From a virus, in the IMG/VR virus record IMGVR_UViG_3300023184_000024, positions 1 to 64,000 of that record: a stretch of DNA of 64,000 bases. One strand, 5' to 3'. Positions 28,573 to 63,394 of this stretch are shown one piece after another; the stretch's first letter is position 1, and every line of letters begins with the position of its first letter. Position numbers and translations under genes: made by a program. Below the pieces are notes generated by a model. It worked only from the letters and a program-made list of their open reading frames with translations, ran no database searches and was not told the origin of the DNA.

Positions 28573-28615
28573 AATTTAACCAGGACCCTCTAGAATATTA
28601 ATAAACTCTCCGCCA

Positions 28616-28621
28616 TAAATA
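28616..28621 (+). promoter_or_regulatory. Late-type promoter element TAAATA
   Basis: CCATAAATACTC at 28613-28624 lies 21 bases upstream of the ATG at 28643, with CAGGAAAA between. It heads the second virion gene block. Confidence 0.68.
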
Positions 28622-28642
28622 CTCGACACAGGAAAATCAAGC

Positions 28643-29938: not shown

Positions 29939-29944
29939 CAAATA

Positions 29945-30271
29945 ATGGCAATTAATATTTTTAAAAGCGTGACAGAAAATTTAACTACAGCACTGACCAC
30001 GCTCTATACTGCACCGGTGGGCTACAGTGCAATTGTGTTAATGGCACAAATCAGTAACACCACTGGTAGTCCGGCAACTACCACAGTAAAAGTTGTAAAC
30101 GTTAGCACTGCCGAAACTTCTTTGGTCACTGGGTTTGAAATACCCGGCAATGACTCTGCCGGAGTGTTGACCGGAAAACTAGTGTTAGAACCCGGGCAAA
30201 GCATCAAAGCATTGGCCAGTGCCAACAGCACTTTGCAAATGGTAATGAGCATACTTGAATCACAGAACTAA
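29945..30271 (+). CDS. Small virion structural protein (108 aa)
   Basis: It is a beta-sandwich-like sequence: YTAPVGYSAIVLMAQISNTT, TTTVKVVNVSTAETSLVTGF, and LVLEPGQSIKALASANSTL. Proteins of this type occur among the fibre genes of T4-like marine phages and may be fibre or baseplate decoration. It is tightly spaced to both neighbours (6 and 3 bases). Confidence 0.72.
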   Translation: MAINIFKSVTENLTTALTTLYTAPVGYSAIVLMAQISNTTGSPATTTVKVVNVSTAETSLVTGFEIPGNDSAGVLTGKLVLEPGQSIKALASANSTLQMVMSILESQN

Positions 30272-30274
30272 ACC

Positions 30275-32236: not shown

Positions 32237-34902
32237 TGCCTACTTCACCGGATAGAATTTCCTGGATTACTCCGGCCGGAAATCTGGGTACAATCCCCGA
32301 AGGAATATTCTTCCAGGTGCCTATTTTAGCAAATGTTCCTGCAGGCAGAGACGTGTATTATCGAATGCTTGCTGGGTCGTTGCCCGACGGTATACAATGC
32401 CGCAAAACTGGATTGATTGAAGGCACCCCCAAGGCAATAGCAAGCTTGCAAGGCGTACCGCAAGAAGTGTCTAGAGATGTAACTTCGACGTTTACTGTAA
32501 GGGCGTACACTGAAATAATGGTCAACGGGCGCGAAATCATCGATCAAGTTTTGGATCGTACCTTTTCGTTGACTGTGACCGGCAACGATATTCCTGATTT
32601 TATTACACCTCCGGGATTGATTGGAACATACTACGACGGATCAGAAGTTGCGATACCCATAGAATTCACTGATAGAGATCCCGATGACAGAGTAAAAATA
32701 TCAATATTATCTGGTGCATTGCCACCAGGATTGGTGTTAACTAAAACAGGTATAATCACTGGATTTATTTCTCCACTGGTTGGACCACCGGGCACTGCTG
32801 ATCCGGGCTACGATGACACCTCCAAAGACCAATACCCAAATGATTTTACTACACGGGCCGCCAGTCAAAACTTTCAATTTACAGTTGGCATAACAGATGG
32901 CAAAGAATCAAATGTTAGAACTTTTCAAATCTATGTGTATGCCAAACAATCAATGTCGGCTGACACCACTGATTTCACAACCGACAATACATTCATCACT
33001 GCCGACGTTATGCCGCAGAGAACACCGGTTCTTATCACCCACCCCGGTGACCTAGGAAGAATTAGAGCAGACAATTATTTCTCTTACAAGTTTGATGCCA
33101 TTGATTTCGACGGAGATGCTGTTGAATACAGCATCCTTGTTGGATCAGGAATTGGCTACGACAGCGAAGGGTTTGATGCCAGCGATGCCGGCTTTGATCG
33201 AGGATCATTTAGTTTACCACCCGGACTTAGTATAGATTCTGAAACTGGGTGGTTTTACGGATATGTGCCCGATCAAGGAGCAACCGAACGTTCCTATAGA
33301 TTTGCTATTCGAGTTTTTAAACGCGACTACCCTGAATTTATTTCAAAATTTTATTATTTTACCGTTACTATTATTGGAAATATTGACACTGAGGTTACTT
33401 GGTTAACAGATCCTTATCTTGGAACCATTAACAATGGCGCAGTAAGCTATTTTTCTGTGTCGGCAATAAATGTTGGTGGAAGGTCATTGCAGTACAGATT
33501 GTTGTCCGGCTCCGACAGCAAGTTACCGCAAGGTCTACGTTTACTGTCATCTGGTAATATTGTGGGACGAGTAAGTTTCAATACATTTGCACTAGACAAC
33601 GGAACTACCACATTCGATAAAGAATTGGGTACCAGGTTAGAAGTCAACGAAACAACGTTTGACTTGGAATTTAATTTCACAGTTAATGCATTTGCATCAC
33701 AAAGTCAACAAATTGAATATCAGGTAAGTTCCATTGTACTATCCAATGGTGGCTTGGGATACACAAGCCAACCTACTGTGACTATTTCACCGCCGCCAAA
33801 CACTGCTGGAGCAATACAGGCCACTGCAGGACTGGTAACTATTCAAGGCGGTGCAATCACAGCAATCAATTTAGGCAACCCTGGATTGGGATACCAAGCA
33901 CCGCCAACTATTACCATCACAGGCGGCGGTGGCAATGGAGCAAAGGCTGTTGCTCAGATAATTGAAGCAAAACAAGTAAATGCTGTTTCTGTGCTAAGAA
34001 GATTTACAATCAATGTCAATCGTGTATTTGACCAACCCTACGAAACATTGTATATTAAAGCAATGCCACCTGCCAACGACAGAACAATTATTTCACAATT
34101 GTTGCAGGACCAACAATTGATTCCTGTCAGCGAACTATATCGAGCCGATGATGTAAACTTTGGAGTTGCACAAAATGTACGATACAATCATGCATATGGA
34201 CTTACAGCATCAACGCTGGAAAAATATGTCAGTGCATTGGATTTAAATCATTATTGGAAAAATTTAACGTTGGGTAAGATCAAATTGGCCCGAGCACTTG
34301 ATCCGGCTGGCAATGTTTTGTATGAAGTAATCTACAGCGAAGTCATTGATAATTTAGTCAACAACCAAGGACAAAGTGTAGGAAAATCTGTTACATTGCC
34401 GTATCCTGTAACACAAGGTGCTACTGAGATTACCACAGTTTATCCCAACAGTTTAATAGACATGAGAAACCAAGTCATTGACACTGTGGGGCAGGTCAGC
34501 CCAGCGTTGCCGTTGTGGATGATATCTAAACAATCCAATGGAAATGTACTGGGTTTTACTCCTGCTTGGGTCATTGCATATATCCAACCGGGCAAGGGCG
34601 AAAAGATATTGTACAATATTAATAGACGCTTTGGCACAGAACTTAACAAAATTGACTTTGAAGTTGATAGATACGAGCTAGACAAATCAATGACTTTTGC
34701 CTATTCTGGCTACGAGGACAGCACCGGTCAGGGATATTGGCTGCCAGCACCTCCGGTTGCAACCACCTTTGACGGAACCATGACACCGCCTACCGTTTTT
34801 GACGGAACCAGCACTGATTTTATCACTCCATCAGATACTGTAACCAGCATTGACACGTTTGATAAATATCTCGTATTCCCCAAGATCAATATTTTAGGAT
34901 AA
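32236..34902 (+). CDS. Large virion protein with repeated putative Ig domains (888 aa)
   Basis: The start overlaps the preceding stop by one base. At least four repeats follow the He_PIG-type pattern of L-P-x-G-(L/I) then T-G-x-I-x-G: LPDGIQCRKTGLIEGTP, LPPGLVLTKTGIITGFI, LPPGLSIDSETGWFYGYV and LPQGLRLLSSGNIVGRV. A Gly-rich beta segment (GGLGYTSQPTVTISPPP) occurs twice around residues 510-570. Likely a long baseplate or tail-fibre component that binds surface sugars. Confidence 0.82.
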   Translation: MPTSPDRISWITPAGNLGTIPEGIFFQVPILANVPAGRDVYYRMLAGSLPDGIQCRKTGLIEGTPKAIASLQGVPQEVSRDVTSTFTVRAYTEIMVNGREIIDQVLDRTFSLTVTGNDIPDFITPPGLIGTYYDGSEVAIPIEFTDRDPDDRVKISILSGALPPGLVLTKTGIITGFISPLVGPPGTADPGYDDTSKDQYPNDFTTRAASQNFQFTVGITDGKESNVRTFQIYVYAKQSMSADTTDFTTDNTFITADVMPQRTPVLITHPGDLGRIRADNYFSYKFDAIDFDGDAVEYSILVGSGIGYDSEGFDASDAGFDRGSFSLPPGLSIDSETGWFYGYVPDQGATERSYRFAIRVFKRDYPEFISKFYYFTVTIIGNIDTEVTWLTDPYLGTINNGAVSYFSVSAINVGGRSLQYRLLSGSDSKLPQGLRLLSSGNIVGRVSFNTFALDNGTTTFDKELGTRLEVNETTFDLEFNFTVNAFASQSQQIEYQVSSIVLSNGGLGYTSQPTVTISPPPNTAGAIQATAGLVTIQGGAITAINLGNPGLGYQAPPTITITGGGGNGAKAVAQIIEAKQVNAVSVLRRFTINVNRVFDQPYETLYIKAMPPANDRTIISQLLQDQQLIPVSELYRADDVNFGVAQNVRYNHAYGLTASTLEKYVSALDLNHYWKNLTLGKIKLARALDPAGNVLYEVIYSEVIDNLVNNQGQSVGKSVTLPYPVTQGATEITTVYPNSLIDMRNQVIDTVGQVSPALPLWMISKQSNGNVLGFTPAWVIAYIQPGKGEKILYNINRRFGTELNKIDFEVDRYELDKSMTFAYSGYEDSTGQGYWLPAPPVATTFDGTMTPPTVFDGTSTDFITPSDTVTSIDTFDKYLVFPKINILG

Positions 34903-34906
34903 TAGG

Positions 34907-35788
34907 ATGACATCAAATATAAACCCAAACAACATCGACGGCTCTTATCCAGTTGCCGGTCAAGACAACGACAGCCAAGGTTTTCGTGACAATTTTACCA
35001 ATATTAAAACAAACTTTGCGTATGCAAGTGCCGAAATAACAGATTTGGAAAACAATGCTGTGTTAAAAGGCGCATTGACCGGGTCTGTTTTAAACAATAA
35101 TATGAACGGCAGTATATTGTCTAATGCCCAACTGCAAGACATGAGTGAAACCAAAGTCTCTATGGGCACAGTTACAGGTTCACAGACAATTAACTACATG
35201 TCTGGACCATATTACACATTGACCACAGCTGGCTCAGTGTCGTTGACTTTTACTAACTTTCCGCCAGCTGGCCAAGTCGGGCGTATAAGATTTCAAATCA
35301 CAGTGGCCAATACAGCACACACACTGACATTGCCAGGGGTGGTCAACGTGGGCACTTCTAACATACAAGGTATCAGCTCAAATATTATTACTTTTAATAA
35401 AACTGGTACGTACGAGTTTGAATTTGAAAGCAGTGACGGTGGGTCAACAGTTACAATCATTGATCAAAATAGGAACTTGGATCCTATATATTTGCCCAGC
35501 AAAGAGGATTTGGCAGACACAGCGGCTGCCAGCACTTTGCTGACCACCAGTTATTTTACCACTGCCGGTTCAGAATCTGCCACACTGGCAGCCGGAGTAG
35601 AAGGTCAGGTAAAAGTGTTGGCCATGTACGGGGATGGTGGTGACATGGACATTACTGTTACCAACGCAGGGTGGAAATCATCGGGCACGGGCGTTGTTAC
35701 ATTTGACACAATTGGCGATGCGTGTACATTGATGTACATCAACTCAAAATGGTTTGCCATCGGCAATAATGGTTGTGTATTTTCTTAA
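34907..35788 (+). CDS. Virion structural protein (293 aa)
   Basis: The N-terminus (MTSNINPNNIDGSYPVAGQD, then NDSQGFRDNFTNIKTNFAYA) is a variant of the DPLR-x-x-F...N-DNF attachment module found in two other fibre genes here. The central part is beta-rich (GPYYTLTTAGSVSLTFTNFP). The C-terminal segment ends in a small barrel-like region. It ends the structural block before a promoter-terminator element. Confidence 0.78.
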   Translation: MTSNINPNNIDGSYPVAGQDNDSQGFRDNFTNIKTNFAYASAEITDLENNAVLKGALTGSVLNNNMNGSILSNAQLQDMSETKVSMGTVTGSQTINYMSGPYYTLTTAGSVSLTFTNFPPAGQVGRIRFQITVANTAHTLTLPGVVNVGTSNIQGISSNIITFNKTGTYEFEFESSDGGSTVTIIDQNRNLDPIYLPSKEDLADTAAASTLLTTSYFTTAGSESATLAAGVEGQVKVLAMYGDGGDMDITVTNAGWKSSGTGVVTFDTIGDACTLMYINSKWFAIGNNGCVFS

Positions 35789-40159: not shown

Positions 40160-40721
40160 TGCCGATGGCGTACTCTTAAACTGGGAGTATGCTTTTAGTA
40201 TCTGGATGGAACAGCACGGGTTTGAAAAAATACCCGGTGGCGATTTAAACTACGACATTGGTGAACGTTACAACATTTCCTGGGATCAAGGGAAAAAACT
40301 AATCAAGATGTTCAACGAATCAGCATCTATTGGATTTTTGCCTCCCTTGCGTGATGCCATGTACTATGTCAAGAGACTGCACGAAGAACATGGCTATGTG
40401 TTTCACTGTATTACTAGCCTGAGTTCCGATGTCAATGCACAGCGTTTGAGAGAAATGAATCTAAGCAAGTTGTTTGGGGACACCGTGTTTCAACGAATTG
40501 TGTGTTTAGAAACAGGTGCAGACAAAAACGATGCCTTGGAACCTTACAGAGATAGCGGATGTTGGTGGGTCGAAGACAAACCAGAAAATGCCGAGGTTGG
40601 CCACAGCATGGGCTTACGTTCTATATTAATGGAACATGGACACAACATGACTCACCATAACAATGATATTCCTGTGGTCAAGAATTGGAAAGAAATTTAC
40701 GATATTGTGGTTGATCAGTGA
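40092..40721 (+). CDS. HAD-family hydrolase or phosphatase-like protein (209 aa)
   Basis: The HAD motif 1 is LILVDADGVLL; a later WVEDKPENAEVG fits motif 4 (acidic pair). HAD proteins of this type are 5'-nucleotidases or polynucleotide phosphatases. ATG 40092 gives a 68-base overlap with the upstream gene; TTG 40143, nearer the domain, is an alternative start. Its stop overlaps the stop of a convergent radical SAM gene by 7 bases. Confidence 0.8.
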   Translation: MDTKLSNHKKPQKHNPKQLILVDADGVLLNWEYAFSIWMEQHGFEKIPGGDLNYDIGERYNISWDQGKKLIKMFNESASIGFLPPLRDAMYYVKRLHEEHGYVFHCITSLSSDVNAQRLREMNLSKLFGDTVFQRIVCLETGADKNDALEPYRDSGCWWVEDKPENAEVGHSMGLRSILMEHGHNMTHHNNDIPVVKNWKEIYDIVVDQ

Positions 40722-41701
40722 CCACAGGCAGCAACACAGGCATACAACTTTCCGTGTGCTATGCTGGGCAATGCCCAAGTTTTTTCCACTAGGTCAAACC
40801 AATCGATACAGTGCTCTAAGCTGTGATGTTTGGCATTGTTTTCTTTGACCATGTCTTTGAATTGGCTATTGCCAGGCTGATGCATGGTACCAGGAAAGAA
40901 CCCTAGAAAACAACACGGGTATATAGATCCGTCAGCAGCCACATAAATTTCTTTTTGTTTTATGTGAGCACATTTTATTTCTGCGTCATCGTTGACCCAG
41001 GGTATTTTCTTTGTGTGATCAAACCAGGTCACATGACTTTCAAGCAACACATCAACCTTGGGTGGCTCGGGTTCGGGACTGCCCAACCAATGACTAAATT
41101 CGCCATCTCTTGTGAACACCGGTCCTTGATTGCGTCCGTGATCTCGTAGTACGAACTCCGAAAACCCTAGTTGACTGCTCATTGCTCGACATGCATCAAG
41201 CTGATGTTGATTGTGTGTGAATGGAATAAACTTCCAAACAGCGTTGCCGCCTACAGCAATCAAGGCCTTGGCATTTTCTAGTATTTTCCCCCATTGGGTA
41301 TCTTGGCGATACAAGCTGTGTGTGTCTTCAAGACCGTCTAATGCAAACAGCACTTTGATTCGAGGATTACTTAATTGCTGCCACCAAGCAGGAGAACGAG
41401 TACTGCCGTTGGTTTCAATTTGTATGTGCGCACTGCTGTTGTCTAAAAAATAGTCAACAATGGCCAGGGCATCACTGGCCAGACTAAAGTCCCCAAGGTT
41501 GCCATTGAAGTTTACACGATTGATTTGCTTTAGGAACGCAGGAGTGAATATGTGTTGAATATCATCAAGTGATAATTCAGTCAATGGGTAACCACCGTTG
41601 AACTCCGATCCCCGATAGTTGCGCATACACATGGGACACCGGGCATTGCATCGAGTGCTGAGTTCAATGTGCAATGCCCGAATTTGGTCTACTTTGATCA
41701 T
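40715..41701 (-). CDS. Twitch/SPASM-type radical SAM enzyme, copy 1 (328 aa)
   Basis: Cys18, Cys22 and Cys25 (STRCNARCPMC) bind the SAM 4Fe-4S cluster. The C-terminal cysteines in CAHIKQKEIYVAADGSIYPC and CVAACG suit a second, twitch- or SPASM-like cluster. Many residues match the enzyme at 62414 (for example FALDGLEDTHSLYR and WKFIPFTHNQHQLD), so the two are paralogues. Such enzymes modify peptides or small molecules; no precursor peptide is evident. It is transcribed against its neighbours from its own late-type promoter. Confidence 0.87.
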   Translation of the reverse strand: MIKVDQIRALHIELSTRCNARCPMCMRNYRGSEFNGGYPLTELSLDDIQHIFTPAFLKQINRVNFNGNLGDFSLASDALAIVDYFLDNSSAHIQIETNGSTRSPAWWQQLSNPRIKVLFALDGLEDTHSLYRQDTQWGKILENAKALIAVGGNAVWKFIPFTHNQHQLDACRAMSSQLGFSEFVLRDHGRNQGPVFTRDGEFSHWLGSPEPEPPKVDVLLESHVTWFDHTKKIPWVNDDAEIKCAHIKQKEIYVAADGSIYPCCFLGFFPGTMHQPGNSQFKDMVKENNAKHHSLEHCIDWFDLVEKTWALPSIAHGKLYACVAACGH

Positions 41702-43750: not shown

Positions 43751-44386
43751 ATGCAACTAAAAAGCTTTGGTTGTAGCTTTGTGTTTGGCAGCGACCTGCG
43801 TGATACCGGCACCCATGCTACTCCCAGTCAATTAACTTGGCCCGCACTGTTGGCCCGACAGTTAGGACACGAATATGCGTGTCATGCTTGTCCGGGTGTG
43901 GGCAATCTCTACATACTAGAACAATTATTAAATGAATTAACCAGCAATGATCCTGCTGTGTATGTTGTAAATTGGACCTGGATCGATCGTTTTGATTACA
44001 CAGAGCATGACAATTCCTGGGCCAGTTTGCGTCCTGGCGACGATAACAGCACTGCCAGGTTCTATTATAAAAATCTACATTCTCAATATCGGGACAAGCT
44101 CACAACACTGTCGTTGATCAAGCTGGCAATTGATGCACTCCTACAGAAAAAGCAAAGTTTCATAATGACTTACATGGATGATTTAATCTTTGAAACACAA
44201 TGGCATACCAGTCCTGCCATTGCCAGTATGCAGGAGTATGTGCAGCCGTATCTGCGCAATTTTGATGGTTTGAATTTTTTAGCTTGGGCTCAACACAACA
44301 ACTTTGAAATAAGCCCAACTCTGCACCCACTGGAGGCAGCACACAGTGCCGCTGCCAATTTAATACTGAATCAAAGCTTGGTGTAG
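43751..44386 (+). CDS. SGNH-hydrolase-like protein, copy 1 (211 aa)
   Basis: The N-terminal GCSFVFGSD resembles block I (G-x-S) of SGNH esterases; GVGNLYILEQL resembles block II/III, and HPLEAAHSAAA near the C-terminus supplies the catalytic His box. SGNH enzymes remove acetyl or acyl groups from glycans, or transfer them. It opens the accessory island and has a relative at 50123. It overlaps the convergent methyltransferase gene by 16 bases. Confidence 0.72.
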   Translation: MQLKSFGCSFVFGSDLRDTGTHATPSQLTWPALLARQLGHEYACHACPGVGNLYILEQLLNELTSNDPAVYVVNWTWIDRFDYTEHDNSWASLRPGDDNSTARFYYKNLHSQYRDKLTTLSLIKLAIDALLQKKQSFIMTYMDDLIFETQWHTSPAIASMQEYVQPYLRNFDGLNFLAWAQHNNFEISPTLHPLEAAHSAAANLILNQSLV

Positions 44387-45099
44387 ACAAAATACAGTCT
44401 ATCGTTGGCGTCTTTTTTAAAGGTTTCCAATTTTAAATTGTAGCGTTCTGCAAACTCATTTACTACTTCGAACGTCCAAGGAAATATTTCCACATACGGC
44501 CCTGTCTTGTGCGTGATTCCGGGATTGGCTCGCAAATAGAATCGACCGCCAGGTTTCAATAAATTCACACAGTGTGCAAAACGTGCTTCGATTTCCGCAC
44601 GATCATTGAAGTTTATTGAACCCAGTGCCATGATCACATCATGTGATTCAGGCTTGACCTTGTAGTCTAGAATGTCTACTTCGTAGTCAGCACAGTTGTT
44701 GTAGGGATCAATACCAATTAGGTTGTTGATACGCCCTTTAAACGGATGATATCCACATCCCACGTCTAGCACCCGTTCAGGATTTAGCTTGTTGATTTCT
44801 TCAGCCAACTCCCATCCGGTGTGTTCATAGTCACCAGTCCTGGGCTTCCATATTTCACTGAAGAAACGCAGGATATAGCGTTCACTTAGGTCATTGACAA
44901 TGTCTTTTAATGTGCCTACATAATCGCAGGGCAAGTGCAGTTCTGCTTCCACTGCATCTTTGAACTTTTTGTAACGGGCCGGAGTCCAAGGTAGGTCTTG
45001 TATCTGCGTGTCTGCGTCAACAGTGACGTTGGCGTACTTGGGTAAATTAAAAGAGTCCTGCAAATTTTTGCAGATTAGGTTAAAAATTTTGGTGTTCAT
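44371..45099 (-). CDS. Class I SAM-dependent methyltransferase (242 aa)
   Basis: SAM-binding motif I is VLDVGCGYHPFKG, followed by LIGIDPYN, DYEVDILDY, VIMALGSINF and the post-motif LLKPGGRFYLRANPG. The N-terminal 90 residues are helical. Acceptor unknown; it could be a sugar, lipid or protein. It is transcribed toward the SGNH gene, within the surface-modification island. Confidence 0.86.
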   Translation of the reverse strand: MNTKIFNLICKNLQDSFNLPKYANVTVDADTQIQDLPWTPARYKKFKDAVEAELHLPCDYVGTLKDIVNDLSERYILRFFSEIWKPRTGDYEHTGWELAEEINKLNPERVLDVGCGYHPFKGRINNLIGIDPYNNCADYEVDILDYKVKPESHDVIMALGSINFNDRAEIEARFAHCVNLLKPGGRFYLRANPGITHKTGPYVEIFPWTFEVVNEFAERYNLKLETFKKDANDRLYFVYTKL

Positions 45100-45116: not shown

Positions 45117-45191
45117 ACTTAGAATTTTTACAAGACCACTAAAATTTTTAATCAGTGCCTTGTTTTTGATTATACTATTTAAGGAGTTACA

Positions 45192-46169
45192 ATGTCAATC
45201 AAAAAATTATTGCTAGCCGCTTTATTAATGCCAATTATGGCATTTGCTTGGGAACCCACCAAACCTGTACAGGTTTATATTGGAAATACACCGGGCGCAG
45301 GTAACGAAATGGCCTTTAGGAAACTGGCTGAAATCGTTCAGAAACATAATCCCAAATTTGTTTATGTTGTACAAAACATTCCCGGGGCAGATTCAGTTAT
45401 TGCTAACAACCGGTTTTTAGAAGCACCCAATGATGGCTATACAATTAACTTGCCCAGCCACATGAGTAGCTATGTTACAAATGACATTTGGGAAAAGTCA
45501 ATTAAGAAATACAATTATGACTCATTTATTGATGTGCTCACAATGGGCAAATCACCATTGGTCCTAGTTGCTGGTGTCAAAAGCGGCATCAACACCCCAC
45601 AGGAGTTTGTGAAGTATATTCAAAGTGGTAGAACAATCAGTATTGCCATTGGTGGAGGCGCACATCGTACAGCATTTGAATACTTAATGGAAAAAGGTCG
45701 GGGCAATAAAGACACAGTCAAACCTATTAAATTTAACGGTCCAATGCCAGCCGTGACCAGTGCCGCAAGCTATGATGGTAAAACAGGTACGGAATTTGCT
45801 ATTATTCCTATTGCGGTTGCAAAAGCATTAGTTGACGCGGGCAAGGTTAAACCAATTGGCTTTACTGGTACACAACGGATGGCACAGTTTCCTAATGTTC
45901 CGTTGTTGCGTGATGTAGCACCTGGCATCAATGTGTATGCTGCCTGGAGTATTCAATTGCCGCCTGGGACAAGTAAAGATATTGTTGAGTGGTACCAACA
46001 GCAGTTTAGCAAAGCAGTGCGTTCAGCAGAGTACAAAGAATACACAGATGCCAATGTTATATTCTACGCAGAAGATGAACTTACACCTGCAGGATTAAAG
46101 CGTCACATGGATGAACTACGTGCGGCATTTATTCCTGTGTTAAGCAAAATTGATTTAGGTAAAGAATGA
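45192..46169 (+). CDS. Bug/TctC-type periplasmic solute-binding protein (325 aa)
   Basis: Residues 1-19 are a Sec signal peptide ending AFA. The mature protein has the Bug family layout: VQVYIGNTPGAGNEMAFRKL near the start, VVQNIPGADSVIANNRFLEA, GYTINLPSHMSS, GAHRTAFEYLME, and KVKPIGFTGTQRMAQFPNVP, then VYAAWSIQLPPGTSKDIVEW. These proteins capture carboxylates for tripartite tricarboxylate transporters. No membrane subunits are encoded here, so it would have to work with host TctAB or act otherwise. A phage-borne copy is unusual; AAGGAG precedes the start. The next gene follows at once. Confidence 0.92.
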   Translation: MSIKKLLLAALLMPIMAFAWEPTKPVQVYIGNTPGAGNEMAFRKLAEIVQKHNPKFVYVVQNIPGADSVIANNRFLEAPNDGYTINLPSHMSSYVTNDIWEKSIKKYNYDSFIDVLTMGKSPLVLVAGVKSGINTPQEFVKYIQSGRTISIAIGGGAHRTAFEYLMEKGRGNKDTVKPIKFNGPMPAVTSAASYDGKTGTEFAIIPIAVAKALVDAGKVKPIGFTGTQRMAQFPNVPLLRDVAPGINVYAAWSIQLPPGTSKDIVEWYQQQFSKAVRSAEYKEYTDANVIFYAEDELTPAGLKRHMDELRAAFIPVLSKIDLGKE

Positions 46170-46748
46170 ATGTCTTTACCTAAAAGAATATTCTTTGCAG
46201 GTGTACCAGGATCTCGTTGGTCCGGGGTTGCACAACTATTAGAAACTGTACCAGGGTTTAACACAAGCGATCGCACACCCGAGCGCACGTTTATCTTTAA
46301 ACCCTTTTCAGATCATTTAGGCGCATACTTTGGTTCGGGCATGGAATTCCCACTGGATTTAAACCCTGCTAATATTGATAGCGCACACACTACATTGGAT
46401 GGCTGTAGATTAATTAAAGCACATGAGTGGGCATACCATTTAGATGCAATTAAGCAACAGTACCCCGAAGATTGGATCATAATGGTATATCGTCCAGACA
46501 CTATTAGTTTTGCCTGGTGGAATGGTGCAGGCGGGTTTAATATTACATATCCCAAGTATGATGCATTTAAAGATGCCACAAATATGATGTGTGAAATCGC
46601 GCAAATGAATAAATCTATCCTGGAGTTTTCGTATAAACACAATGCGACTTGGAATCATTTAACACCCCAATGGGTATTAGATAATTTTGGTGTCAACAGA
46701 GAAGTTGACCACAAGTTTCATGACATGCTAATTACTATTATAAAATGA
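46170..46748 (+). CDS. Sulfotransferase-like P-loop protein A (192 aa)
   Basis: The 5'-phosphosulfate-loop-like motif FAGVPGSRWSGV lies at 9-20, and VYRPDTISFAWWNGAGGFNI resembles the 3'-phosphate-binding region of PAPS-dependent sulfotransferases. It begins directly after the binding-protein stop and overlaps the next, related protein by 4 bases. The family is common in marine T4-like phages with unproven activity. Acceptor unknown. Confidence 0.7.
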   Translation: MSLPKRIFFAGVPGSRWSGVAQLLETVPGFNTSDRTPERTFIFKPFSDHLGAYFGSGMEFPLDLNPANIDSAHTTLDGCRLIKAHEWAYHLDAIKQQYPEDWIIMVYRPDTISFAWWNGAGGFNITYPKYDAFKDATNMMCEIAQMNKSILEFSYKHNATWNHLTPQWVLDNFGVNREVDHKFHDMLITIIK

Positions 46749-47374
46749 AATATATCTTTGTAGCCGGTGCTCCTGGCAGTAAATGGAGCAGTGTAGTCAA
46801 AAACATCTACTATAGTCCTGATATCGATCGGTCAGACTATAGAGATGAATGGACTTATTATCATGACGCTTCGGGTACTCGGGAACTAATGCACCTGGGT
46901 GCTTACTTTGACCCGGGAATGATTAGCCCGTTGCCTGAGGATTTGACCACGTTGTCAAGGCAGCAACTAGAAGAGATATTTGCTGAGCCATTTCAATTTA
47001 AAGAATCTCGAGGTGTGCGCATTATCAAAAGCCATGTGTTCTCAAATCACATTGACTATTTGCGCGAACTATTCCCTGAAACACCCATTGTAATCGTGCA
47101 TCGCAGTGATGACGCCTGCCTGGGCTGGTGGGTCAAGTGTGGTCATTTCGACATCACTTATCCTGATTATCATGAGTATTTTAAAGATTTAAAAACAATG
47201 GCCCGTATCATTAAAAGCCAAAATGCAGACATCTTAACAGCATGGTGGAAATACAATGATTGTCCGGTAATGGACAACAATCTTCGATTGGCTGCGGCCT
47301 TGGGCATAGATGCACCTCCCCCAGAATACACACAAGAATATGCAGTAAACGACATAAGGGTAAAAGTAATATGA
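46745..47374 (+). CDS. Sulfotransferase-like P-loop protein B (209 aa)
   Basis: It is paralogous to the preceding protein: FVAGAPGSKWSSVV at 5-18, LGAYFDPGM, VRIIKSHVFSNHIDYLREL, VIVHRSDDACLGWWVKCGHF, then DITYPDYHEYFKD. The HRSD region is the 3'-phosphate contact. Tandem duplication with divergence suggests two acceptors or a heteromer. It overlaps the oxygenase gene by 4 bases. Confidence 0.7.
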   Translation: MKYIFVAGAPGSKWSSVVKNIYYSPDIDRSDYRDEWTYYHDASGTRELMHLGAYFDPGMISPLPEDLTTLSRQQLEEIFAEPFQFKESRGVRIIKSHVFSNHIDYLRELFPETPIVIVHRSDDACLGWWVKCGHFDITYPDYHEYFKDLKTMARIIKSQNADILTAWWKYNDCPVMDNNLRLAAALGIDAPPPEYTQEYAVNDIRVKVI

Positions 47375-48036
47375 TAACAGACGAATTTAAAAGCAGTTGG
47401 GATTTCACTAAAAGCACCAGCACATACCATTTTGATCCTACGAAACTGGATCGTTTTGAAGATGTGATCGCACATCTTGGACACATTGAACCCACCTGGA
47501 CAGCGGATGTAGCAGACATTGTTGCTAATAGCAAGCCAGCAACCTGGGAAACACGTGGCTACAAAGGCGAGGGCGTGCTGCCTCCACGTGAAGATTTGGC
47601 GGCCGAAGAATATGACCTAGAGCGTGTGGGTGCAGACCCAAAAATGACAATCACTCATTTAAATTGGAACATGCCCGAATCGCTTAAAAAGATTTCCCGG
47701 CAATTTGCTCTAGATGACTGCATGGAGCGTATTCACGTGCAACGCCCGGGGGAGGTGTGGAATCTACACATGGATAAACTACAGAAATGGAACCCCGAAG
47801 ATCCCAGTCGTATAATGCGTATCTTTGTTCAGCTCACAGACTGGCAGCCAGGGCAGTTCTGGGAGTACGGCAACCATCACTGGAATCAATGGCGTGCCGG
47901 CGATGTTTCAACCTTTGACTGGGCCAACATGCCACACAGCACAGCCAATGCAGGACACCATCCCCGAGTTACACTACAGTTAACAGGCGTTATCACTGAT
48001 CGCACACAAGAATACTTGGCCAATATACCCAGATGA
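47371..48036 (+). CDS. 2OG-Fe(II)/Asp-beta-hydroxylase-like oxygenase (221 aa)
   Basis: ATG 47371 overlaps the upstream stop (ATGA). The iron site is His133-x-Asp135 (NLHMDK) and His189 (MPHSTAN), with Arg199 after it as 2-oxoglutarate contact; VQLTDWQPGQFWEYGNHHWN, then WRAGDVSTFDW, forms the beta-helix core. It should hydroxylate a small molecule, lipid or protein side chain. It is translationally coupled with sulfotransferase-like genes on both sides, so hydroxylation may create the site that is sulfated. Confidence 0.8.
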   Translation: MITDEFKSSWDFTKSTSTYHFDPTKLDRFEDVIAHLGHIEPTWTADVADIVANSKPATWETRGYKGEGVLPPREDLAAEEYDLERVGADPKMTITHLNWNMPESLKKISRQFALDDCMERIHVQRPGEVWNLHMDKLQKWNPEDPSRIMRIFVQLTDWQPGQFWEYGNHHWNQWRAGDVSTFDWANMPHSTANAGHHPRVTLQLTGVITDRTQEYLANIPR

Positions 48037-48659
48037 AAACACTGTTGATCATTACTGGCCCACAAGGCTCAGGCAATCATTTATGGAGCAAGATCTTTGC
48101 ACTACATCCTGATGTACATGGTTGGCATGCTCTGCTACACGAATACTGGATAGGGCATGATCAGGAGCCTTTTGCGGCCTATTGGGAGAACCCCGATTTA
48201 CTTCAAGATTTTGACTGGAGTCGTTGTGATCATTATGTCACCAGTGTCAGCACACCTTACATGCTCAACGGTGAGCGCACTGTGCCCAACATTGTGCAGT
48301 TTGCTGCCACTGCCATGGGACTGGGTATATGTGTAAAAATTGCCATCATAGGTCGTGATCGTAATATATTAACCTATCAAGAACAGCGTGTGCGTGGCGA
48401 TGCCACCTATGATACAGCATTAAAAGAATATGAAAAACTCAGGACCTGGAGCCCGGTGTTCTTGAGTTATGAATTACTGCATCTTTATCGGGATCTTTAT
48501 CTACAACAAATTGCCAATCAATTGGAATTCCCTGTGGATTACTCTAGTGCCCAGCTGGCAAATATTTTAACAGATGATACTAACAGTAAATATTTCAACC
48601 CTGTGGATCATCATCCCACTGATGATCTAGCACGACACTCTTCAAGGAAATGGAAATAA
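48033..48659 (+). CDS. Sulfotransferase-like P-loop protein C (208 aa)
   Basis: P-loop TGPQGSGNHLWSKIF lies at 8-22, and IAIIGRDRNILTYQEQRVRG provides the R-D pair typical of the 3'-phosphate site. HPDVHGWHALLHEYW and the C-terminal HHPTDDLARHS are His rich. It is coupled to the oxygenase (4-base overlap) and 1 base from the kinase fusion. It differs in sequence from proteins A and B. Confidence 0.68.
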   Translation: MKTLLIITGPQGSGNHLWSKIFALHPDVHGWHALLHEYWIGHDQEPFAAYWENPDLLQDFDWSRCDHYVTSVSTPYMLNGERTVPNIVQFAATAMGLGICVKIAIIGRDRNILTYQEQRVRGDATYDTALKEYEKLRTWSPVFLSYELLHLYRDLYLQQIANQLEFPVDYSSAQLANILTDDTNSKYFNPVDHHPTDDLARHSSRKWK

Positions 48660-48660
48660 C

Positions 48661-49464
48661 ATGCCACAACGTATATTAATCATGGGCTTGCCTGGCGCAG
48701 GCAAAACATATCTAGCACAGCACATACTCGAACACTTGCAAAACGAAAAGAAACGAGTGCAATGGCTCAACGCTGACGATGTGCGTAAAAAATACAATGA
48801 CTGGGATTTCAGTCACGAAGGACGTATTCGCCAAAGTCTGCGCATGCGAGAACTAGCAGATGCCATGACTGATGTAGACTATGTTATCTGCGACTTTGTT
48901 GCTCCGCTGGTTGAAATGCGCAACAACTTCAAAGCAGATTGGACCGTCTGGGTTGATACCATAGACAAGGGCAGATACGAAGACACTAATCGAGCCTTTG
49001 TCCCTCCCGAAGTCTACGACTTCAGAATCACAGAACAACACGGGGAAAAGTGGGGCGAGTTTGTTGCCGCACACATACTAGATAATCGTCGTCGTCCTGT
49101 ATTTGATTGGCAGCGAGAAACAGTGCAGATGTTGGGTCGCTGGCAGCCTTGGCATGCCGGTCACCGTGCATTATTTGAACGAGCCATAGCCAAAACTGGG
49201 CAAGTTTGTATAATGATCCGGGATTGTCAGGGCTGGCAGGGATCCAACCCTTTTGCCATAGAACAAGTCAAAGGGTATATTCGACGAGACCTAGACATGC
49301 TGTATCAAGGGCAGTATGAAATACAAGTTGTGCCCAACATTGTCAACATCACCTACGGCAGAGATGTGGGTTATCGGATTGAACAAGAATCATTTGATGC
49401 TGCCACACACTCTATTTCAGCTACTAAAATACGAAAAGAATTAAAAGACCAAGGTCTTTTATAA
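48661..49464 (+). CDS. APS-kinase-like domain fused to a nucleotidyltransferase domain (267 aa)
   Basis: Residues 1-125 resemble adenylylsulfate kinase: GLPGAGKT at 9-16, WLNADDVRKKYNDWDFSHEG, then RIRQSLRMRELADAM, and VICDFVAPLVEMR. Residues 150-267 form an HxGH nucleotidyltransferase: GRWQPWHAGH (159-168) and ISATKIR (252-258). With sulfotransferase-like neighbours, PAPS synthesis is the attractive reading, but the second domain looks more like NMN- or CTP-type transferases than ATP sulfurylase. NAD salvage (NadR-like, order reversed) is the main alternative. Confidence 0.75.
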   Translation: MPQRILIMGLPGAGKTYLAQHILEHLQNEKKRVQWLNADDVRKKYNDWDFSHEGRIRQSLRMRELADAMTDVDYVICDFVAPLVEMRNNFKADWTVWVDTIDKGRYEDTNRAFVPPEVYDFRITEQHGEKWGEFVAAHILDNRRRPVFDWQRETVQMLGRWQPWHAGHRALFERAIAKTGQVCIMIRDCQGWQGSNPFAIEQVKGYIRRDLDMLYQGQYEIQVVPNIVNITYGRDVGYRIEQESFDAATHSISATKIRKELKDQGLL

Positions 49465-50126
49465 TGAAAACAGTGACCCAGACTGACATTGAAGTGTGCT
49501 CGTGTGGACCATTGGTGTATGTGAGAACACTGAAATGTGCCAGCACCTTTTTTTATTGGAATTTTACAAAAACTTTTGGTTGGCATGAAATCGACTACCA
49601 AGACATTGACTGGGACCGTCAACATGTGTTTGGACATCTGGCTGAACCCATTACACGCAGACACAAAGCCGTGGCCGAGTACATTGACATGCACAGTCTT
49701 GGTCATGAATATCTCAACAATGAAAATCTACAGCAATTGTTGGATGAAACACCAACCTTGGACTGCCATTCTGCGCCGTATTTAGATACATTTCAGACTG
49801 ATGCTTATCGAATTGATTGGATTCCGTTGTCAGACAACAACGATGACAACATTGACATAACAGCTCGATTGTTGCGCACCTACGGCGTCGATAATGTTCA
49901 ATGGGACCGTGATTTTGATCACAGTGCCAGTGCATCAAAAAAAGCTGTGGAATTAAAATTAAAAGAAACATGGGAAAAGAGATATTCCACGTACAATGAT
50001 TTACCTGCATGGTTGAAACGTCATTACTCTGATGATATAACCTTGTACCGTGTAGTTACATCAAAGTTTAATCCTGATGCGTCCAGCTGGACTGACACCA
50101 GTTGGATACGACACCCAACGCCATGA
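49464..50126 (+). CDS. Sulfotransferase-like protein D (220 aa)
   Basis: VRTLKCASTFFYWNFTKTFG (20-39) corresponds to the K-x-A-S-T phosphosulfate loop of carbohydrate sulfotransferases of the Sulfotransfer_2 kind; HVFGHLAEPITRRHKAVAEY follows like their 3'-phosphate box. The start overlaps the kinase fusion by one base and the end overlaps the SGNH gene by 4. Acceptor unknown, probably a glycan. Confidence 0.66.
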   Translation: MKTVTQTDIEVCSCGPLVYVRTLKCASTFFYWNFTKTFGWHEIDYQDIDWDRQHVFGHLAEPITRRHKAVAEYIDMHSLGHEYLNNENLQQLLDETPTLDCHSAPYLDTFQTDAYRIDWIPLSDNNDDNIDITARLLRTYGVDNVQWDRDFDHSASASKKAVELKLKETWEKRYSTYNDLPAWLKRHYSDDITLYRVVTSKFNPDASSWTDTSWIRHPTP

Positions 50127-51049
50127 TCTTGCCTGACTTTGACATACTAGAATTCCGCAATTTGCAACTGGAATATTCGGGCATGGATCACCCTGATTTT
50201 TGCGCTGATCCGGCGCATTTTAAAAAATACACAAAGAAAATACACTATCAATACAACAGTCGAGGTTTTCGAGACAGGGAATGGCCTGCCAATCCGCAAC
50301 TACGAGATTGTGTATGGTGCTTTGGGGACAGTTTCACAGCTGGTGTGGGCAGTCCAGGGACAGACACCTGGGTGCGTCAGGTTGAACAAGCACTGGGCCG
50401 ACCTTGCGTCAACATCAGCTTGGATGGCGCCAACAACCAATGGATAGCAGAAAAAATACAGCGTGTTCAACGGGAAATCAATCCCAGATATATCATTGTG
50501 CAATGGAGTTATCTTCATAGAGTGCCGGCTTCTGCCGACGATTTTGCCGACCGTGTCAACGATGCATGGCAACGATTTTATGAAAATATCCGGGACCCTG
50601 GTTGGCCCGACTGTGCAGACCACAAGAATTTTGTCAATTTACCTGAAGAAATAAAACAAGAAATTGTCAAAGACTTTGGTATTCCTGGTTACTTCGAATA
50701 CCAAAATTCTGAATTAATTGTCAACGACTTTAAATTGGATAATCTCAAACTTAGGCACCATGCACCTTGGATTCCGAGCACACACGAAGAAGACCTGGCA
50801 AGAACACTGGACGGTGTTAAACGTGTACAACGTTGGGGCGAAACAAAAATTCTTCACAGTTGTGTGCCGTTGTTTGCACCAAAAAATATACGCAAGTTAT
50901 TTTACCAGCACTTGTCTGACCAACAATATCATTATATTCCAGAGTTCACACCGCTTGACCTTGCCCGAGATGGCTGGCATTATGACATCAAAACTAGTGA
51001 GAAATTTGCTGAATTGGCAAAGGCGCACTGGCATCAGCAGAATTGGTAA
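50123..51049 (+). CDS. SGNH-hydrolase-like protein, copy 2 (308 aa)
   Basis: ATG 50123 overlaps the preceding stop. Block I is CVWCFGDSFTAGVGSPGTDT (Ser nucleophile in GDSFT), block III GANNQWIAEKI (G-x-N), and block V LARDGWHYDIKTSEKFAEL (D-x-x-H). All four SGNH blocks are visible, so esterase or acyltransferase activity is likely. With the sulfotransferase-like genes it fits modification of a surface polysaccharide. It converges with the next minus-strand gene (56-base overlap). Confidence 0.83.
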   Translation: MILPDFDILEFRNLQLEYSGMDHPDFCADPAHFKKYTKKIHYQYNSRGFRDREWPANPQLRDCVWCFGDSFTAGVGSPGTDTWVRQVEQALGRPCVNISLDGANNQWIAEKIQRVQREINPRYIIVQWSYLHRVPASADDFADRVNDAWQRFYENIRDPGWPDCADHKNFVNLPEEIKQEIVKDFGIPGYFEYQNSELIVNDFKLDNLKLRHHAPWIPSTHEEDLARTLDGVKRVQRWGETKILHSCVPLFAPKNIRKLFYQHLSDQQYHYIPEFTPLDLARDGWHYDIKTSEKFAELAKAHWHQQNW

Positions 51050-52151
51050 TTAACTGCGGGTTCCATACCTGCTGTTCAGACTCAATTTGAGCCTGCACTA
51101 CAAGCTCAGTGACTGGCTTGCCCACGGTGGGATTTTCTGCAATCCATTGATTGTAGATTTCTCTGCATTGTTCAAAGTTGCGTATCATAAAACGCTTTTC
51201 TGCTAGAGTTTGTTTTTTAATAGGAACGTTGCCAGATAATATACCTAGGTTAATCATTTTTTCAATGCTGTGTGTGGCAGCCATGTAATTTTTGACATGT
51301 GTTCTTACAAAACTACGTTGCTCCACCGGCAAGTGGGCAACAACATTACTGGGAGCAGATTCGGGCAAGTCTTTGTCAATGTTGGTTGATCCTAGTTTTA
51401 GCAGGCCGTTACTGTTGTCCATGGCCAGTGCTCCTATGTTACTGGTATAATAATTACACCGATTCCAGTCGCTGAAACTAATGCCATAGGTATCTTTGAA
51501 AGTTTGTATTTTTTTCTGGCCTGCAAATATTGGCAGATTCAGCGCATAATTTTCTATGTCAGGCATGTGTCGTTCATAATGAAAATACGAACTTATCCCA
51601 AAATGGCGTTCACTCCATTCTAAATATAGACGATAGTCTTCGAGTATTTTAACCATTACTTCAGGATCAACATCAACCCCGTCGCGATATATTTCATAAA
51701 ATGCACTGATTTTCTCCTGTCCCGAATAGACATTTTTCTTTTTGGTTATTCTATTCAATGCCCATGATATGGCATGCTCAAACACATTTTCTCGACGAGC
51801 TGAAATAATAAAGAAATTGTCATTGAGGTATTGATAAAAAGGCATCAACTCGCTCATGTCATCGTTGCGATTTCGCAGATGATAGTGTGCCAAGCGTGAT
51901 GTTTTAAAATGATCAACGCTGCTCAGCATGTCCACAATTTCCGTCAATGATTGATGGTATCCCCAAGTGGCCTGGTGTTTGCAGACAATTTCTCGATTGA
52001 AATCTGCACTGTAAAATTTGTTTAGACCATTGACAAGTTCGTGCAAATTAATAACAGGCTGACCATAGTCCTGCAACTGCATAAAAACTGTGATCACTCG
52101 TTGCAGTAAAGTACTGCCAACGGCATCTGGCGTGAGTATAAGTACGTTCAT
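50994..52151 (-). CDS. Sulfotransferase-like protein E (385 aa)
   Basis: The N-terminal ILTPDAVGSTLLQRVITVFM (5-24) is a P-loop-like phosphosulfate loop; FFIISARRENVFEHAISWAL supplies the R...S-type 3'-phosphate site. The C-terminal 150 residues are helical, and the last 40 (QAQIESEQQVWNP onward) look flexible. I recall similar long proteins in T4-like cyanophages annotated as sulfotransferases. It is transcribed opposite to the rest of the island from a TAAATA element. Confidence 0.7.
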   Translation of the reverse strand: MNVLILTPDAVGSTLLQRVITVFMQLQDYGQPVINLHELVNGLNKFYSADFNREIVCKHQATWGYHQSLTEIVDMLSSVDHFKTSRLAHYHLRNRNDDMSELMPFYQYLNDNFFIISARRENVFEHAISWALNRITKKKNVYSGQEKISAFYEIYRDGVDVDPEVMVKILEDYRLYLEWSERHFGISSYFHYERHMPDIENYALNLPIFAGQKKIQTFKDTYGISFSDWNRCNYYTSNIGALAMDNSNGLLKLGSTNIDKDLPESAPSNVVAHLPVEQRSFVRTHVKNYMAATHSIEKMINLGILSGNVPIKKQTLAEKRFMIRNFEQCREIYNQWIAENPTVGKPVTELVVQAQIESEQQVWNPQLITNSADASAPLPIQQISH

Positions 52152-52159
52152 AATAACTG

Positions 52160-52165
52160 TATTTA
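52160..52165 (-). promoter_or_regulatory. Late-type promoter element TAAATA (minus strand)
   Basis: ATTAAATACAG on the minus strand ends 8 bases before the ATG at 52151. The gap between the divergent genes is only 18 bases, so the plus-strand gene at 52170 must use a promoter inside its neighbour or read-through. Confidence 0.55.
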
Positions 52166-52169
52166 ATCG

Positions 52170-53072
52170 ATGACCAAAGACCTTAATATTCTTTATTTCA
52201 GTGGAGGTGGTGGATTCTTATTCTGCCATTTATTGTTGCTGGGTGAACAGCATTTTGCACACATTGATTATCCGCAGGCCTATGATCAGTCCGGGCCTTG
52301 GGTACTACAACTGGCACAGGATCCTGATTTTTGCCAGTGGATCATGGACCAGGGTAGACTGCCTGAATCAGACTACCAAGGATTGAAACAGCCGTCATGG
52401 CCTAGTTACTCAGACTACGTTGCGCAAGGCAATCATTGGCCTGAAGTGCAACAGGCCCTGCTGTATGCAGTGGCCCAAAACAACAATGACATTGCCGACG
52501 TTGCTGAGTTGAATTATCGTAAATTTCGTGTGTTTTTTCAACATGTGATGCAGTCACAGTGGGATCCAGGACGACGTTACTGGAAGCAAACTGAATACTG
52601 GCCGCGCAACGACACCACTGGAACAACACCCATACCGCCAGGGGTGGGCAGACTATATCTACACGGACACAAACTCACTGACTGGTTGGAATCCCCACAC
52701 CCAGGCACAAAAGTATTGTTGTACACAGATGTGCGCAGTCATCTGCGATTGGCCAGCTATAAAAATGCTTGGTTTTACAATGATCTAGACGGCCGGACCT
52801 GGAAACCCACTAGAACAAATGGGCATCGCTGGGTGCTGAGGAACTGGACTGGGCACATGCCCGACGGGCAGCCGGTGTTCAACCAAGCTGCCACTGCTGA
52901 AAAATACGCTGACATTGTGATAAAATTGCAGGATTTGGTCAACTATCCAGAAGCAACATTGGCCAAGTTTGGCATGAGTTTCAACCACAGTCAGCAAAAA
53001 TTGCTGGCGCACTGGCGCAGTCAGCACCCAGTTGAACTGCTTGAACGACTGGGCATCCACCCGAACAACTAA
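52170..53072 (+). CDS. Possible sulfotransferase-like protein F (300 aa)
   Basis: The N-terminal LYFSGGGGFLFCHLLLL (8-24) could be a degenerate phosphosulfate loop, and TKVLLYTDVRSHLRLASYKN a later nucleotide-contact strand. The rest is Trp/Tyr/His rich. Similar proteins sit next to sulfotransferase-like genes in other marine phages as I recall. The assignment is weak, mostly by context. Confidence 0.5.
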   Translation: MTKDLNILYFSGGGGFLFCHLLLLGEQHFAHIDYPQAYDQSGPWVLQLAQDPDFCQWIMDQGRLPESDYQGLKQPSWPSYSDYVAQGNHWPEVQQALLYAVAQNNNDIADVAELNYRKFRVFFQHVMQSQWDPGRRYWKQTEYWPRNDTTGTTPIPPGVGRLYLHGHKLTDWLESPHPGTKVLLYTDVRSHLRLASYKNAWFYNDLDGRTWKPTRTNGHRWVLRNWTGHMPDGQPVFNQAATAEKYADIVIKLQDLVNYPEATLAKFGMSFNHSQQKLLAHWRSQHPVELLERLGIHPNN

Positions 53073-61979: not shown

Positions 61980-62414
61980 ATGGATACTTCAACGCTGACA
62001 TTTGATGCAGTGGCATCAGCACCTGGATTAACTCTAACTGTTACTTTTGATCAAGAAACAGTGTTTGATGGCCCAGTAGATGGCAATGTTGTGCATGTAA
62101 AACATCAATTCAATGATGACAGTGACCTCGATCATCTGCTAGAAATTACCATGCAAGGCAAAACCGCCAGAGATACCCAAGTCGACGAGCATGGCAACAT
62201 TGTCAGCGATGTTACATTAACTGTTTCAAATATTGCGCTAGACGACATTGTGCTCAGCAGTTCCTTGCTGGCAAACTGCAATTATCATCATAATTTCAAT
62301 GGCAGTCAACCTGATATCATTGATGAATTTCATGGTATAATGGGCTGTAATGGCACAGTGAAAATACCATTCAAATCGCCAATCTACATTTGGCTGCTTG
62401 AAAACATGGCCTGA
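61980..62414 (+). CDS. Carbohydrate-binding-like small protein (144 aa)
   Basis: The pattern LTFDAVASAPGLTLTVTFDQ, VVHVKHQFNDDSDLDHLLEI, TMQGKTARDTQVDEHGNIV and LTVSNIALDDIVLSSSL fits a beta-sandwich like certain CBM domains. It overlaps the radical SAM gene start by one base, so the two are translationally coupled. It may be the substrate or carrier of that enzyme, or a structural protein. Confidence 0.66.
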   Translation: MDTSTLTFDAVASAPGLTLTVTFDQETVFDGPVDGNVVHVKHQFNDDSDLDHLLEITMQGKTARDTQVDEHGNIVSDVTLTVSNIALDDIVLSSSLLANCNYHHNFNGSQPDIIDEFHGIMGCNGTVKIPFKSPIYIWLLENMA

Positions 62415-63394
62415 TGACAACAGTTGATCAACTACACGAAATAGTTTTTGAAGCCACAAGTCATTGTAATCTGCATTGTCCACAATGCGAGCGTTATGAT
62501 CAAGATGGATACCTTCATCCAAAGTTAACCCCTCAACACATCGATTTTGATCTTGTCAAGCAAAACATCAATGTTGCCCAGCTTGTTGGATTAAAGAATG
62601 TAACCTTTGAAGGCAACTACGGCGACATATTGATGCACCCACGTGCTCGAGAGTTGTTTGATTTATTTTCAACAGTGGAACGTGTTGCAGCCACCACCAA
62701 CGGAAGTTTACGCAACAAAGCTTGGTGGGCCGACCTAGGGCGCAACAGCAAAGTTGATGTTATGTTCAGCATAGATGGACTTGAAGATACCAACCATGTT
62801 TACCGCATCAATTCAAACTGGCAACGCATCATGGAAAATGCAGAAAGTTTTATTTCTGCTGGTGGACAAGCATACTGGAAATTTATAGTATTCAAGCACA
62901 ACGAACACCAACTTGATCAAGCAAGAGAACTGAGCAAGACCATGGGCTTCCAAGATTTCCATTGGCAGTACAGTGATCGCAGTTGGTTTCAAGGAAGAGT
63001 TTGGCCTGTCAAAGTTGAAGGGCAGTATCTCTACGACCTAGAACCCGCAAAATCAGTCACTGCCAATACCTCTACTCCAGCTGTGATTACTTTGGACAAG
63101 ATTAAAAAGAAGAATTATACCAATCCTGTGCAGAAGTGTTTTTTGCCACAAGGCAGGCTCTACATCAACAGCAAAGGGCATGTTTTGCCCTGTTGTATGA
63201 CCAGTGGCAAAACCTGGGGGCACGATCTTGAAAGCCGTATGTGGCAACGTTTAATAGGCGACATAAACAGCATTGATCTACATCATCACACACTTGAAGA
63301 TATATTAAACAGTGACTTTTATCAGCATCGTTTGATCAACAGTTTTTCCGGCAGTCCCTACACGCATCCTTCGTGTGTGGCCTATTGCGGATAA
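62414..63394 (+). CDS. Twitch/SPASM-type radical SAM enzyme, copy 2 (326 aa)
   Basis: Cys18, Cys22 and Cys25 (TSHCNLHCPQC) form the SAM cluster site. FSIDGLEDTNHVYR and WKFIVFKHNEHQLD repeat motifs of the minus-strand paralogue at 40715. C-terminal cysteines in KCFLPQGRLYINSKGHVLPC and SCVAYCG suit a second cluster. It is coupled to a virion-like protein gene upstream and followed by a late-promoter nucleotidyltransferase. Substrate unknown; virion protein modification is one possibility. Confidence 0.87.
   Translation: MTTVDQLHEIVFEATSHCNLHCPQCERYDQDGYLHPKLTPQHIDFDLVKQNINVAQLVGLKNVTFEGNYGDILMHPRARELFDLFSTVERVAATTNGSLRNKAWWADLGRNSKVDVMFSIDGLEDTNHVYRINSNWQRIMENAESFISAGGQAYWKFIVFKHNEHQLDQARELSKTMGFQDFHWQYSDRSWFQGRVWPVKVEGQYLYDLEPAKSVTANTSTPAVITLDKIKKKNYTNPVQKCFLPQGRLYINSKGHVLPCCMTSGKTWGHDLESRMWQRLIGDINSIDLHHHTLEDILNSDFYQHRLINSFSGSPYTHPSCVAYCG

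Follow-up and report, generated by a model that had tools for sequence, protein, structure and literature searches.

In the human 3'-phosphoadenosine 5'-phosphosulfate (PAPS) synthetases PAPSS1/2 an adenosine 5'-phosphosulfate (APS) kinase domain is followed by an ATP sulfurylase domain. Sulfotransferases are known from phages, as are auxiliary metabolic genes, and the role of the phage sulfotransferases has been described as unclear (PMC10580990). We describe here a gene module, uncharacterised in the searchable literature, in positions 1 to 64,000 (the window) of the IMG/VR virus record IMGVR_UViG_3300023184_000024. A preliminary description of this DNA had read the genes from 46170 to 53072 as a sulfation island with five clear and one weak sulfotransferase-like proteins and its own supplier of activated sulfate. 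Comparison with related loci reveals an order-conserved cassette whose invariant core is a divergent methyltransferase, a TctC-type receptor, a small P-loop protein (ST2) and a 2-oxoglutarate (2OG)-type oxygenase, often accompanied by KNT, a fusion of an APS-kinase-like and a nucleotidyltransferase domain. Our tentative reading, in which we have a little less than even confidence, is a phage cassette that would import a small molecule, probably a carboxylate, and modify it chemically, with KNT as the maker of a 3'-phospho-adenylyl donor.

IMG/VR scans identified 264 relatives of ST2 and at least 597 of KNT. Conservation was counted in 20 contigs with sufficient flank and an ST2 less than 70% identical; these were chosen by ST2, which is therefore not itself counted. 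The predicted S-adenosylmethionine (SAM)-dependent methyltransferase (MT; 44371-45099, minus strand) lies divergently upstream in all 20 contigs. TctC (45192-46169, plus strand), a periplasmic receptor of the tripartite tricarboxylate transporter type, is encoded no more than three genes upstream of ST2 (46745-47374, plus) in 19 of them, and the remaining one has TctA together with a second type of receptor, TctC2, so that a Tct receptor is present in 20/20. The oxygenase gene OXY (47371-48036, plus) occurs in 19/20 contigs and adjoins ST2 in 18. KNT (48661-49464, plus) is frequent (13/20), as is ST3 (48033-48659, plus; 9/20), and the SGNH/GDSL hydrolase (50123-51049, plus; 6/20) and its convergent partner ST5 (50994-52151, minus; 4/20) are accessory. 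The ST2 paralogue ST1 (46170-46748, plus; 1/20), ST6 (52170-53072, plus; 1/20) and ST4 (49464-50126, plus; 0/20) are at most occasional, the last two being uncharacterised proteins. A glutamine amidotransferase is present in 9/20 contigs and a diiron-like protein, c32, in 6/20.

The recurrent order in the fetched loci is MT (leftwards), TctC, ST2, OXY, then ST3, KNT and the pair of SGNH and leftwards ST5, each in some loci only, and gene maps show the order to be kept across dozens of phage contigs. Both the TctC/ST2 and the ST2/OXY junctions have a median overlap of 4 bases (20 contigs). The right flank varies between groups in these maps, and the island is therefore a cassette more than part of a shared backbone. 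A search for the same order in related phages had been proposed, and its outcome rules out a scattered, single occurrence of these genes; the coupled pathway is upheld as an order-conserved set in which an APS-kinase-like enzyme is linked to sulfotransferase-like genes, but not in its proposed membership and extent. Recurrence in dozens of phages marks a real pathway, for which sulfate transfer is a candidate reaction.

All of the open reading frames (ORFs) named from 46170 to 53072 are present, abutting or overlapping. The single operon described for 46170-51049 is borne out by these junctions but not in its start point, as TctC abuts ST1 at 46170 and opens the operon one gene earlier. The original island boundaries were misplaced, and the two genes left out, those of MT and TctC, both exceed the majority of the proposed sulfotransferases in conservation. 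A perfect sigma-70 consensus (TTGACA-18-TATAAT; 45169-45198, minus strand; 12/12, a consensus match only) points at MT and overlaps the start of tctC. In many contigs a Peptidase C26/glutamine amidotransferase gene (c21; L100:3637-4212) sits between MT and ST2, and c32 (L100:1925-2623, L201:14093-14848, L243:1067-1801) is a conserved protein that resembles ferritins and diiron oxygenases and has no Pfam match. The locus L201 is rearranged, with the order KNT-TctA-TctC2-ST3-MT-ST1-OXY. Outside phages, ST2 and MT are found together in L245 (Tahibacter), and in L246, a MAG contig assigned to a marine bacterium, ST1 and MT lie beside TctC2 and TctA; in both, MT adjoins the ST2 homologue. ST2 homologues are rare in bacteria, with a single occurrence among 369 genomes of one class, that of the starting genome itself, and for KNT 274 genomes of that class gave no match, which is uninformative without a positive control. 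A search of annotated phages returned none that carries ST3 or a close TctC.

The sulfotransferases themselves are fewer than proposed. Only ST2 has a family match, and this to Pfam Sulfotransfer_3 below the gathering score (E = 2.3e-4; 21.9 bits, cut-off 27); ST1, encoded at 46170, is its paralogue (33% identity) with conserved GVPGSRWS and WW motifs. Sulfotransfer_3 is matched by 15 of 43 ST2 homologues (E<0.01), and the one close ST2 homologue in BFVD, from an uncultured phage, is labelled 'Sulfotransferase family'. The ST2 profile has no match in the PDB. The residues PGSKWSS, KxH, R120 and W128-W129 are invariant (71/71). Canonical phage sulfotransferases have invariant R114 and S122, and a weak alignment to ST2 (E 0.048) pairs Arg120 with Arg114 and Trp128 with Ser122. 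Measured against the canonical PAPS motifs (a 5'-phosphosulfate loop and a 3'-phosphate Arg plus Ser), ST2 thus retains the Arg, has PGSKWSS as its loop without the usual P-loop Arg/Lys, and has the invariant Trp128 instead of the 3'-phosphate-binding Ser. The ST2 model is confident (pLDDT 93), but Foldseek relates it only weakly (TM of about 0.4) to known folds, some of them sulfotransferases (TPST, SULT, Cpz8), others P-loop kinases.

ST3 (48033), a P-loop protein, reaches canonical phage sulfotransferases by profile comparison only (81%, E 1.2e-5), with no Pfam match; by profile it is the better supported candidate sulfotransferase of the two. The sulfotransferase nature of ST4, ST5 and ST6 is not supported by sequence comparison, and the likeness proposed for the proteins at 49464, 50994 and 52170 finds no sulfotransferase match: ST4 has no significant Pfam or PHROG match and only three relatives among 160 loci, ST6 has no match in Pfam or PHROG, and ST5, a P-loop-like protein with conserved PDxxGSTLL and R-x-N-x2-E-x3-S motifs, has none in either and none by profile comparison, including against the PDB. 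The lack of a PAPS pocket in most of the proteins, named beforehand as an observation that would argue against the sulfation pathway, is thus found in part, because most of the proposed sulfotransferases have no recognisable PAPS site and ST2 has Trp for Ser.

The oxygenase and the SGNH hydrolase assigned beforehand are recovered. The product of 47371 has the 2OG-Fe(II) oxygenase signature, with H133-x-D135, H189 and the 2OG-binding R199 invariant in 12 divergent members; the window protein has no Pfam match and one relative matches PhyH at 0.08. The protein at 50123 matches Lipase_GDSL (Pfam, E 2.7e-5). MT matches Methyltransf_25 below the cut-off (Pfam, E 3.4e-4). TctC matches PF03401 (Pfam, E 5.5e-21) and its N-terminus, MSIKKLLLAALLMPIMAFA, is a signal-peptide-like stretch when read by eye, such that it has both the family match and the predicted export expected of a receptor of this type. 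TctA plus TctC2 stands in for TctC in L029, L142, L146, L201 and L244, TctC2 being a distant homologue (profile match 97.9%), and the transporter pair of these phage contigs is linked to sulfotransferase-like and methyltransferase genes. TctA was not found in the phage record. That the type of receptor is swapped and a Tct receptor nonetheless kept argues for uptake as part of the function.

That TctC (or TctA plus TctC) and a methyltransferase are always present suggests that the island imports and tailors a small molecule in preference to acting on a surface polymer; of the two targets offered beforehand, a surface polymer or a metabolite, the second gains and the first is weakened. Sulfation of a surface polymer (host lipopolysaccharide or a virion glycan), with KNT as the PAPS source and SGNH as a deacylase, would account for an APS-kinase-like enzyme, the sulfotransferase-like ST2 and ST3 and a hydrolase in one island, and sulfotransferases have precedent in phages (PMC10580990). 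We consider it unlikely, since the conserved core contains an uptake receptor and a methyltransferase and no glycosyltransferase or polymer gene, SGNH is present in so few of the islands, and ST2 lacks the canonical Ser of the PAPS site. Alternatively, ST2 and the oxygenase might act on a protein of the host or the virion, perhaps on TctC itself, altering for example uptake or superinfection; the sulfotransferases matched by ST2 in Foldseek are mostly TPST (tyrosylprotein sulfotransferases), and the coupling to TctC is fixed. However, the similarity in fold is weak and shared with small-molecule kinases, and ST2 has no visible signal peptide whereas TctC seems exported (both read by eye), which makes this the least probable of the explanations considered.

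KNT is confirmed as the predicted fusion of an APS kinase domain (approximately residues 1-125) and a nucleotidyltransferase domain (approximately residues 155-262). Its kinase half matches Pfam APS_kinase (E 3.3e-12), all eight of its sequence matches in the PDB are APS kinases, and APS kinases make up almost all of the 50 best Foldseek matches of the AlphaFold model (pLDDT 90.7), from E 5e-7 onwards. G12, K15, D39, R42, F50, R55, R61, F79 and P82 are invariant in 80/80 and also in distant homologues. Acceptor-site residues were placed by alignment with 2yvu and 2pey, whose aligned positions we take to line the APS-kinase acceptor site, and KNT has both the P-loop and the acceptor-side residues (D of DGD, R, GF, DR, RR, FISP); the Asn of DRxEN, which presumably has a functional role in APS kinase, is a Gln. 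By its sequence, modelled fold and invariant residues the domain is APS-kinase-like. In L041, L066, L175 and L207 there are paired adjacent KNT-labelled ORFs, either duplications or split genes.

The profile of the second domain matches archaeal nicotinamide mononucleotide (NMN) adenylyltransferase (NMNAT; PDB, E 3.8e-9), NMNAT/Nudix proteins and NadR, and never ATP sulfurylase; alignment to ATP sulfurylase cores with hhalign gives 16%, using three template sequences only, and ATP sulfurylase (PF01747) was not found elsewhere in the phage record. GRxQPxHxGH and S-x-T-x2-R, the motifs of NMN adenylyltransferases, are invariant, as is GR-x-VGY. For comparison we used the Asn/Trp after the NPF motif, which we take to be the NMN-specific binding residues; the corresponding region of KNT reads PNIVNIxYGRDVGY, with no conserved Trp. 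Of the proposed PAPS supplier, one half is APS-kinase-like and the other half is NMNAT-like.

Beyond the island KNT occurs in many unrelated gene contexts, and a Pfam census of its neighbours (127) was too scattered for enrichment, for which reason we adopted a motif count against far genes. A sulfotransferase-type N-terminal loop is present in 17 of 320 non-redundant gene families near KNT and in 4 of 414 far from it (p = 5e-4, somewhat optimistic because the motif was picked after some of the neighbours had been seen). A sulfotransferase lies within three genes of KNT in 44/140 loci outside the island, a count that takes in the rearranged L201, and in 12/51 after KNTs at least 80% identical are dropped. 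One canonical family, with PRSGST and the Arg and Ser of the 3'-phosphate motif, is found at positions -1 to -6 relative to KNT, often directly adjoining and almost never downstream. Judged by these sequence motifs, the unrelated sulfotransferase families that recur next to KNT are numerous, which speaks for a role in supplying a PAPS-like donor. In L184, L192, L196 and L221, from other phages, long sulfotransferase-domain proteins of 589-641 aa are encoded upstream of KNT at a distance of a few genes. In two Stenotrophomonas phages (L164:5565-6741 and L161:5565-6738) KNT overlaps a NADAR-domain gene, which hints at a nucleotide/ADP-ribose link there.

These contexts bear on two further explanations. 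KNT could be a nicotinamide adenine dinucleotide (NAD)-salvage enzyme, a nucleoside kinase plus NMN adenylyltransferase, present by chance or for NAD repair and separate from the rest of the island, as its NMNAT and NadR matches, its varied contexts and the overlap with NADAR would allow. However, its kinase half is of the APS-kinase and not the ribosylnicotinamide-kinase type, neither NAPRTase nor NADAR was found in the phage record, NADAR lies near KNT in the two Stenotrophomonas phages only among the loci searched, and sulfotransferases are enriched near KNT; salvage is accordingly improbable. About equally improbable is that KNT makes a 3'-phospho-nucleotide donor of a group other than sulfate, transferred by ST2-type proteins, by analogy with Campylobacter phosphoramidate synthesis (Cj1415-Cj1418), an analogy in which we assume a likeness of Cj1415 and the C26 enzyme to the island genes. 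It would suit a protein that joins an APS-kinase-like domain to a nucleotidyltransferase other than ATP sulfurylase, the departure of ST2 from PAPS-enzyme motifs, the ubiquitous methyltransferase and the C26-type amidotransferase in almost half of the islands; but the amidotransferase shows no tie to KNT, and in other phages KNT recurs near canonical PAPS-type sulfotransferases. The Campylobacter pathway itself ends in a cytidine diphosphate (CDP)-phosphoramidate 3'-phosphate (PMC11800397).

In the uptake and tailoring cassette that we prefer, exported TctC would capture a solute, to be imported through host TctA/B; some related phages carry a TctA themselves. The solute would be hydroxylated in the cytosol by the oxygenase and methylated by the methyltransferase, and ST2, or its variants ST1 and ST3, would move a group onto it from a 3'-phosphoadenosine-type donor. 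The nucleotidyltransferase domain of KNT would make X-AMP and the APS-kinase-like domain phosphorylate its 3'-OH, yielding PAPS (X = sulfate) or a PAPS-like analogue. The gene content and its order, the folds, the conserved residues and the recurrent neighbourhood of KNT and sulfotransferases are observed; we infer the substrate, the order of reactions, the group transferred, the identity of the donor and that X is sulfate. Weighing against this scheme are the departures of ST2 from the PAPS site and its weak fold matches to sulfotransferases, the missing ATP sulfurylase domain in KNT, the lack of KNT in roughly one island in three, and the want of any sulfotransferase within three genes of KNT at approximately 70% of its loci beyond the island. 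A more specific version, in which KNT is a PAPS synthase with an NMNAT-type domain replacing ATP sulfurylase and serves small sulfotransferase-like enzymes of a new class that act on a molecule imported by the phage-encoded Tct receptor, is doubtful though somewhat less so than surface sulfation.

The record, whose first 64 kb make up the window, is 352,754 bases long and includes tail-fibre, clamp-loader, PhoH and protease genes; because of this size and content we assign it to a jumbo tailed phage (giant, freshwater-type). It has no close DNA relative in the phage collection. Two radical SAM/SPASM proteins are encoded close to the island, at 40715-41701 (minus strand), adjoining PhoH, and at 62414-63394, and a large tail-fibre cluster at 27445-35788 is preceded by a glycosyltransferase (phrog_3408).

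A literature search, with most subscription papers outside it, returned no account of a phage Tct/sulfotransferase/APS-kinase island and no description of an APS-kinase/NMNAT fusion that works together with sulfotransferases. Since the set is fixed and repeated, and includes a receptor and a candidate donor-making enzyme, its substrate, donor and product are each open to test with purified proteins; were KNT to make PAPS, it would be a second evolutionary route to activated sulfate, in phages. Among described families, KNT matches phrog_10255 over nearly its full length (E 2e-48), which PHROGs label only as 'kinase', with the coupling to the TctC-ST2-oxygenase module absent there. The Campylobacter methyl phosphoramidate pathway resembles the proposed scheme in having a 3'-phosphorylated nucleotide donor as its end point (PMC11800397), but is CDP-based, and there is no phosphoramidate evidence for the phage island. 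ST2 is a distant relative of the phage sulfotransferases (PF13469) of marine phages and cyanophages, from which it differs in the missing 3'-phosphate Ser and in being nearly always accompanied by a Tct receptor, MT and an oxygenase. With PAPS synthetase KNT shares an APS-kinase-type N-terminus, matching PAPSS1 in sequence and fold, fused to a C-terminal HxGH nucleotidyltransferase; its second domain, however, is only about 110 residues long and NMNAT-like, resembling ATP sulfurylase in fold-class motifs only. Finally, the island TctC has the PF03401 match common to TctC/Bug receptors, to which some related phages add TctA, but it is phage-borne and linked to modifying enzymes.

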